32,802 nucleotides of DNA from NCBI GenBank assembly GCA_937871605.1, contig CALMRM010000287.1, positions 17,294-50,095 of the forward strand, written 5' to 3'. Positions 2,174 through 2,622 of this stretch are shown piece after piece. The notes beneath the pieces are model-generated. The model had not been told where the DNA came from. It was given only the letters and a program-made list of their open reading frames with translations, and made no database searches. The position numbers and the translations under genes were made by a program. This DNA comes from an uncultured Terriglobus sp. GTDB lineage: Bacteria > Acidobacteriota > Terriglobia > Terriglobales > Acidobacteriaceae. Positions within the stretch are counted from its first letter, which is position 1. Each line of letters starts with the position of its first letter.

Positions 2174-2220
2174 TTTTAGGGATTGACTTTCACGAGTCGA
2201 TAAGCATCAGATAGGAATGG

Positions 2221-2249
2221 CTCCCCACCGTTGCTGACACGGCGGGGAG
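2221..2249 (-). terminator. GC-rich hairpin, terminator-like (no strong U-tract)
   Basis: CTCCCCACCGT-TGCTGAC-ACGGCGGGGAG. 11-bp stem; the one irregular pair is G-U in a minus-strand RNA but A-C in a plus-strand RNA. Confidence 0.5.
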
Positions 2250-2271
2250 GTTGGGAAGCAAGGCTCACGTC

Positions 2272-2376
2272 CTACGACATGTGTCTTGCCCAAGTCACCA
2301 GCAGGAATAGGAGAATTTCTCCCGGGACCTGCATGGTGAAGCTGCGACAACGAAACCGAAATGGCTGCATCGTCAT
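2272..2376 (-). CDS. Candidate 34-aa small protein with hydrophobic segment
   Basis: ATG at 2376 preceded by AGAAAGGAGCT (near-consensus SD); product MTMQPFRFRCRSFTMQVPGEILLFLLVTWARHMS. Flanked by hairpins on both sides. Confidence 0.45.
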   Translation of the reverse strand: MTMQPFRFRCRSFTMQVPGEILLFLLVTWARHMS

Positions 2377-2394
2377 AGCTCCTTTCTGTGAGAT

Positions 2395-2422
2395 CGCTTC
2401 CAAGGTTGCAGCCTTGGAAGCG
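2395..2422. repeat. Perfect 11-bp inverted repeat (hairpin) upstream of small ORF
   Basis: CGCTTCCAAGG-TTGCAG-CCTTGGAAGCG, perfect stem; immediately adjacent to a second hairpin TTTCGC-TTTTCAGG-GCGAAA at 2423-2442. Confidence 0.85.
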
Positions 2423-2622
2423 TTTCGCTTTTCAGGGCGAAACTGGTCACTTCCTCGGTGCCCCGTAGCGGTCAGCCCCACAGATCGGCAGTTCCAATCT
2501 AAGCACGTTTATTCAACAGGTTGTTTGCCCTACTGGCACGCCGCATCATCTGCAGCACGGGCGTGCACTGCCACATACAGCTAATTGGGCGTGGCATGCA
2601 ACAGCGCCGGTAGAATAGGCGC

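Follow-up and report, generated by a model that had tools for sequence, protein, structure and literature searches.

The gap between lipA and apt in an uncultured Terriglobus sp. raises the question of what occupies its minus strand. A preliminary description of the window (the whole stretch of DNA analysed, 32,802 nt) placed there two leader hairpins, a strong Shine-Dalgarno (SD) sequence, a small ORF and a 3' hairpin, and offered two readings, an unannotated gene for a small membrane protein with a structured leader or a structured RNA in which the ORF is incidental. All of the named parts were found in the sequence, including AGAAAGGAGCT-ATG (Table 1). The first leader hairpin, given as 2423-2442, is present as 2422-2443 with the arms GTTTCGC/GCGAAAC, and the 3' hairpin at 2221-2249 was recovered as described, with 11 pairs, a single G-U on the minus strand and no U-tract to speak of. 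The hairpin at 2395-2422 exists as well, but with 14-nt arms that are 93% complementary in place of the perfect 11-bp stem claimed. The proposed limits of 2221-2442 enclose a real unit but are too short, as it appears to run from a -10 box at 2496-2501 to a putative antisense promoter at 2183-2212. In the close relative G010, which shares the lipA-apt gene order, 24 nt separate the lipA stop from the apt start and the unit is missing; it was therefore gained or lost at the window locus.

Table 1. Features of the lipA-apt unit (positions in the window; strand relative to the window sequence)
Feature	Position	Strand	Details	Basis
Sense (mRNA) promoter -10 box TAGATT	2496..2501	-		read from sequence
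P1 5' strand	2479..2484	-	pairs with 2385-2390	covariation (40 copies); permutation z=9.2
5' segment CGCTACGGGGC	2460..2470	-	complementary to loop and 3' strand of H1 (alternative helix or pseudoknot)	
Hairpin H1	2422..2443	-	GTTTCGC CCTGAAAA GCGAAAC	sequence and covariation
Hairpin H2	2395..2422	-	14-nt arms, 93% complementary	sequence and covariation
P1 3' strand CACAGA	2385..2390	-	adjoins SD sequence	covariation and permutation
SD sequence AAAGGAG	2379..2385	-		read from sequence
Small ORF (probable start)	2272..2370	-	32 aa, MQPFRFRCRSFTMQVPGEILLFLLVTWARHMS; type A peptide, VPGEILLFLL core; stop 2272-2274; 34 aa from ATG 2376	
3' hairpin	2221..2249	-	22 nt past stop codon; 11 pairs, 91% complementary, one G-U	
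Putative antisense promoter, -35 box TTGACT	2183..2188	+		positional motif analysis
Putative antisense -10-like box TCAGAT	2207..2212	+	18-nt spacer from -35	positional motif analysis
Antisense intrinsic terminator-like site	2395..2432	+	H2, then TTTCGCTTTT	read from sequence
Predicted antisense RNA, ~214 nt	2219..2432	+	3' hairpin, ORF, SD, H2	inferred from promoter and terminator
Extra lipA-apt DNA relative to G010	2174..2603	.	same gene order in G010	

The unit is not confined to this locus, and its recurrence puts it far beyond chance. A DNA search identified a second copy elsewhere in the window genome (75% over 145 nt) and others in four more genomes of the genus, from which the covariance models R1 and R2 were built. 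Across the order, these models have members in at least 21 of 397 genomes, a number that includes weak ones dropped later, and in the family covariance-model members occur in at least 22 of 398 genomes; these genome counts are lower bounds, with few candidates scored per genome. In a search of the phylum (396 genomes), matches were restricted to Acidobacteriaceae apart from a single borderline one in another family (L148, G572:C24:139333-139434, E 0.005). About 43 copies were found altogether, all in Acidobacteriaceae (Terriglobus, Granulicella and their neighbours), with a patchy distribution and up to six per genome, the number present in the window genome (C287, C85, C186, C55, C52 and C152). 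Weak matches to the model in other genera (G339, G239, G228, G236, G200, G142 and G114) lacked an SD sequence and ORF and were discarded. An exact 18-mer of H1 was also searched in all species genomes and viral contigs. The sole full-length model match above 30 bits outside Acidobacteriaceae, on a Pseudolabrys contig (L088), apparently lies inside coding sequence, lacks such a small ORF and was rejected, and the remaining matches outside the family were low-scoring or partial.

The genes flanking the unit vary between copies. Recurrent housekeeping neighbours include what are presumably glyA and asnS, and no mobile-element or phage neighbours common to the copies were obvious. In different genomes, copies that differ in peptide type or orientation sit close to the same conserved genes (L049, L055 and L073; L047, L059 and L071), a hint of insertion hot spots or of recurrent turnover at ancestral sites. 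One Granulicella MAG has two oppositely oriented copies approximately 7 kb apart (L047, 2953-3062 and 10055-10162). Several cassettes look to be decaying, retaining a good leader score while the peptide is not intact or the ORF or H1 is disrupted (L056 2992-3089 in G088, L053 3001-3113 in G076, L064 2997-3117 in G396 and L051 2995-3105 in G014).

Comparison of the copies places the twin leader hairpins, which are indeed present, as merely part of a larger fold closed by a long-range stem, P1 (2479-2484 with 2385-2390), and in most copies a -10-like hexamer lies 7-11 nt ahead of P1. In an alignment of 40 copies, itself fitted to the covariance model, 95.3% of the cells are paired, both partners have changed in 21 of the 22 leader pairs, and covariation scores 0.556, compared with 0.203 for shuffled alignments and at most 0.157 with slid partners. 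All six P1 pairs covary. P1 was also recovered by an alignment-free own-partner test, in which the 5' region of one copy is paired with the SD region of another; the result (z=9.2, reached in 0 of 20,000 permutations, controls null) may be somewhat inflated, as may those of the other permutation tests, because related copies were treated as exchangeable. P1 commonly extends into the SD sequence, for instance GCCGCCTCTACAGA/TCTGTAGAGGAGGT.

The H1 loop is matched by a complementary segment that lies between P1 and H1 (overall z=7.1, controls null), with z=5.2-7.1 across tests and 6.4 and 6.0 for divergent loops alone. Allowing bulges extends the pairing of this segment to the 3' strand of H1, at -15.1 kcal/mol for own partners versus -12.7 for swapped ones (z=6.9); the segment may thus form either a pseudoknot that leaves H1 standing or an alternative helix in its place. 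By nested-fold energy the median difference between the two leader folds is -1.5 kcal/mol, that of the window copy is +1.3, and 19 of 33 copies fall within 3 kcal. The SD sequence has a predicted mean unpaired probability of 0.24 over the copies and an openness of 0.5 in the window copy. P1, together with the partial pairing of the SD sequence, suggests that the structure of the mRNA limits access to the ribosome-binding site.

The encoded peptides range from 28 to 44 aa, and 28 of 31 contain a TM-like segment compatible with a single helix; that of the window is among the least hydrophobic, with a borderline 17-residue mean of 1.44. Type A peptides share the core VPGEILLFLL, type B peptides SASEKVILALIGL and type C peptides KAxGSxSVPGxL, whereas types D and E have few copies each. 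Substitutions are conservative (BLOSUM 0.81 versus -0.55 expected), and in each of the three peptide types tested variation is lowest at the second codon position. As judged from these comparisons, the ORF is a real gene under purifying selection at the protein level. Searches with peptide profiles alone recovered known copies along with three that were new to the leader model (L213, L205 and L196). All three have the leader, with co-varied loop partners such as GCGTTGAGC with GCTCAACGC, and the leader in these peptide-found copies is the strongest independent support for peptide and leader belonging together. Covariance and peptide searches thus bear out the expected conservation in relatives, the leader being common to about 40 copies across the family and the peptide conserved as well, and the proposal of an unannotated gene for a small membrane protein, with a structured leader, holds. 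The 34-aa ORF was correctly located, but its start was probably misplaced at 2376. The ATG at 2370, which would give a 32-aa peptide beginning MQPFRFRC..., is favoured because it aligns with the M-x-P-(F/L/V) starts of relatives (MKPLRVKW..., MRPFVVSW...) and has a normal SD spacing.

A 3' hairpin follows soon after the stop codon in 30 of the 31 copies, above 95% of shuffles, with a U-run behind it in some. It is probable that this hairpin acts both as the sense terminator, with a weak U-tract in the window copy, and as the 5' hairpin of an antisense RNA. The earlier use of its single G-U pair to support the minus strand is too simple, as the hairpin is probably transcribed off both strands. 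Within 100 nt beyond it, 25 of 31 copies carry the -35 motif TTGAC (GTCAA on the sense strand) pointing into the gene, against a mean of 3.3 and a maximum of 8 in 300 shuffles, although the motif had been spotted in the data before its enrichment was tested; six copies do not have it there. GTCAA is the commonest 5-mer in these 100 nt, and control counts were 2 copies for the sense orientation, 0 for the next 100 nt and 1 upstream of the leader, with 0-6 copies in neighbouring regions. Most of the motifs are accompanied 15-18 nt on by a -10-like box (consensus TCnAAT). Among the copies found blind, L196 alone has the -35 motif in the expected arrangement, together with a -10-like box, while that of L205 lies farther off and L213 has none. 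The signal appears in the positional analysis only, a generic promoter score for the antisense strand (mean z 0.19) being not clearly above shuffles.

In the window copy, H2 and its T-rich flank resemble a terminator for the antisense strand, and an A-rich stretch ahead of H2 is found in 36 of 40 copies, although this tract may be kept for H1 alone because it overlaps H1. The lipA stop codon lies at 2171-2173 and the antisense -35 box starts 10 nt beyond it; given this adjacency, read-through from lipA could also yield RNA antisense to the unit.

The window unit is probably one member of a type I toxin-antitoxin-like cassette family dispersed through Acidobacteriaceae. A type I plan is suggested by the membrane peptide, the SD lock, the switchable leader, the putative convergent antisense promoter, the unit's own ends, the divergent copies and their presence or absence, and the wording "type I toxin-antitoxin-like" is chosen over proven membership because the antisense transcript and the toxicity are predictions. 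Comparison among copies backs the leader fold, the SD-adjacent and loop pairings, coding selection, the 3' hairpin and the antisense promoter motif; the preliminary description, which had the core parts right, missed the SD-sequestering long-range stem, the pairing of loop and 5' segment, the multicopy family, its presence/absence and the antisense promoter. In the proposed mechanism, the sense promoter would give a short mRNA that folds its 5' end back through P1 onto the SD region, enclosing H1 and H2, so that the ORF would be poorly translated from both nascent and full-length RNA. The pairing of the 5' segment with the H1 loop, the longer form of which would displace H1, probably represents a second fold controlling ribosome access. 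The ORF product would be a small membrane peptide with a single helix. From a convergent promoter past the 3' hairpin, an antisense RNA would run through the 3' hairpin, ORF and SD sequence, end at H2 and silence the mRNA by duplex formation. We infer that this RNA is made and represses, and that the peptide is membrane-active or growth-inhibiting, as well as the identity of the translated fold. There is about an even chance that these copies constitute an undescribed multicopy type I family native to Acidobacteriota, with a 5'-end lock that has a bistable loop switch and silences the nascent toxin mRNA, and with dual-use hairpins, in which the sense 3' hairpin would double as the 5' hairpin of the antisense RNA and H2 as the antisense terminator.

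Other explanations account for parts of these data. Some small membrane proteins are stress modulators, and the unit might encode an antisense-regulated membrane modulator with a housekeeping or stress function, not a toxin; conservation of the peptides as proteins under purifying selection would fit, and antisense control is compatible with it. This is nevertheless unlikely, as the patchiness, the divergent paralogs per genome, the presence or absence at the same locus and the SD lock are features seen more typically in toxin cassettes. A riboswitch-like leader that senses a ligand or protein and governs a non-toxic small membrane protein, with an antisense promoter that is incidental or belongs to convergent genes, seems decidedly improbable. 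The loop varies across types together with its pairing partner, as in a base-paired lock and not an aptamer. What is regulated is in every case a gene for a tiny peptide of one kind, without a metabolic context, and the antisense -35 motif is strongly concentrated at a single location. A sensor is nonetheless suggested by the pseudoknot-like leader with its SD-proximal stem, by two folds similar in energy and by the conservation of some unpaired positions (UG, CGC and A-rich loop columns).

The two remaining possibilities have scarcely any probability. Strong RNA structure is what the originally suggested non-coding RNA with an incidental ORF would display, but this alternative is rejected because peptide and leader are both conserved, the amino-acid sequence of the ORF being conserved in three peptide types and peptide profiles finding new copies. 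An attenuator, in which a leader peptide controls a neighbouring gene, would likewise combine a small ORF with leader hairpins; the downstream gene is convergent in 20 of 31 copies, and the unit therefore serves no neighbouring gene, while the hairpin directly after the stop codon and the differing neighbours also speak against this role.

Returning to the type I-like cassette, no match above the gathering score was found with Rfam in the window, where 2180-2520 gave only sub-threshold chance matches. Representative peptides had no match in NCBIfam, PADLOC or PHROGs and a single sub-cut-off match, to Claudin, in Pfam, and no RNA motif or type I system of Acidobacteria turned up among the papers searched. 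By analogy, aapA/IsoA of Helicobacter pylori appears closest to the unit in plan and timP nearest for the pseudoknot. The former comprises a membrane peptide of approximately 30 aa in several chromosomal copies, a cis-overlapping antisense RNA and an SD sequence masked by alternative mRNA folds, and the unit resembles it in peptide size, multiple copies, predicted antisense overlap and SD masking (PMC6733600). In aapA/IsoA, however, masking involves a long-distance interaction of the 3' end, the antisense promoter lies inside the ORF and the antisense RNA is 80 nt, whereas the unit uses the mRNA 5' end within the leader, its motif lies beyond the 3' hairpin and its predicted antisense RNA is ~214 nt (PMC6733600). 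The sequence contrast between the unit peptides and AapA is drawn from the Pfam and NCBIfam profile searches, which were without a match. The enterobacterial timP/TimR is similar in its sequestered SD sequence, covariation-backed leader pseudoknot, alternative conformations and small inner-membrane peptide; its mRNA has four stem-loops with the SD sequence in a hairpin of its own, and TimR pairs with a leader stem-loop, whereas the predicted antisense RNA of the unit spans the ORF and SD sequence (PMC11228461).

In zorO/OrzO and tisB/IstR the antitoxin gene lies away from the toxin ORF, its RNA pairs with the leader, and activation is by processing, to which nothing in the unit points. These systems share with the unit small hydrophobic peptides and a ribosome-binding site sequestered by leader structure (PMC8309996, PMC7708055). 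According to the report on msoT1/msoA1 of Microcystis, type I systems were until then known only from Proteobacteria, Firmicutes and Tenericutes (PMC12390103). That locus is, like the unit, a type I-like one outside the classical phyla; it is cyanobacterial and experimentally tested, while the unit, known from sequence, is likened to it by description (PMC12390103). With no library match and no description in the literature searched, the unit would stand for a hitherto undescribed family, in a phylum new to such systems and with a leader architecture of its own. If confirmed, it would imply that the type I kind is wider than homology searches suggest, and its approximately 43 divergent copies would offer a natural set for studying how a toxin mRNA is kept silent during transcription. 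The covariance and peptide models would then also serve to annotate, in a dominant soil phylum, genes whose small size puts them beyond annotation pipelines.
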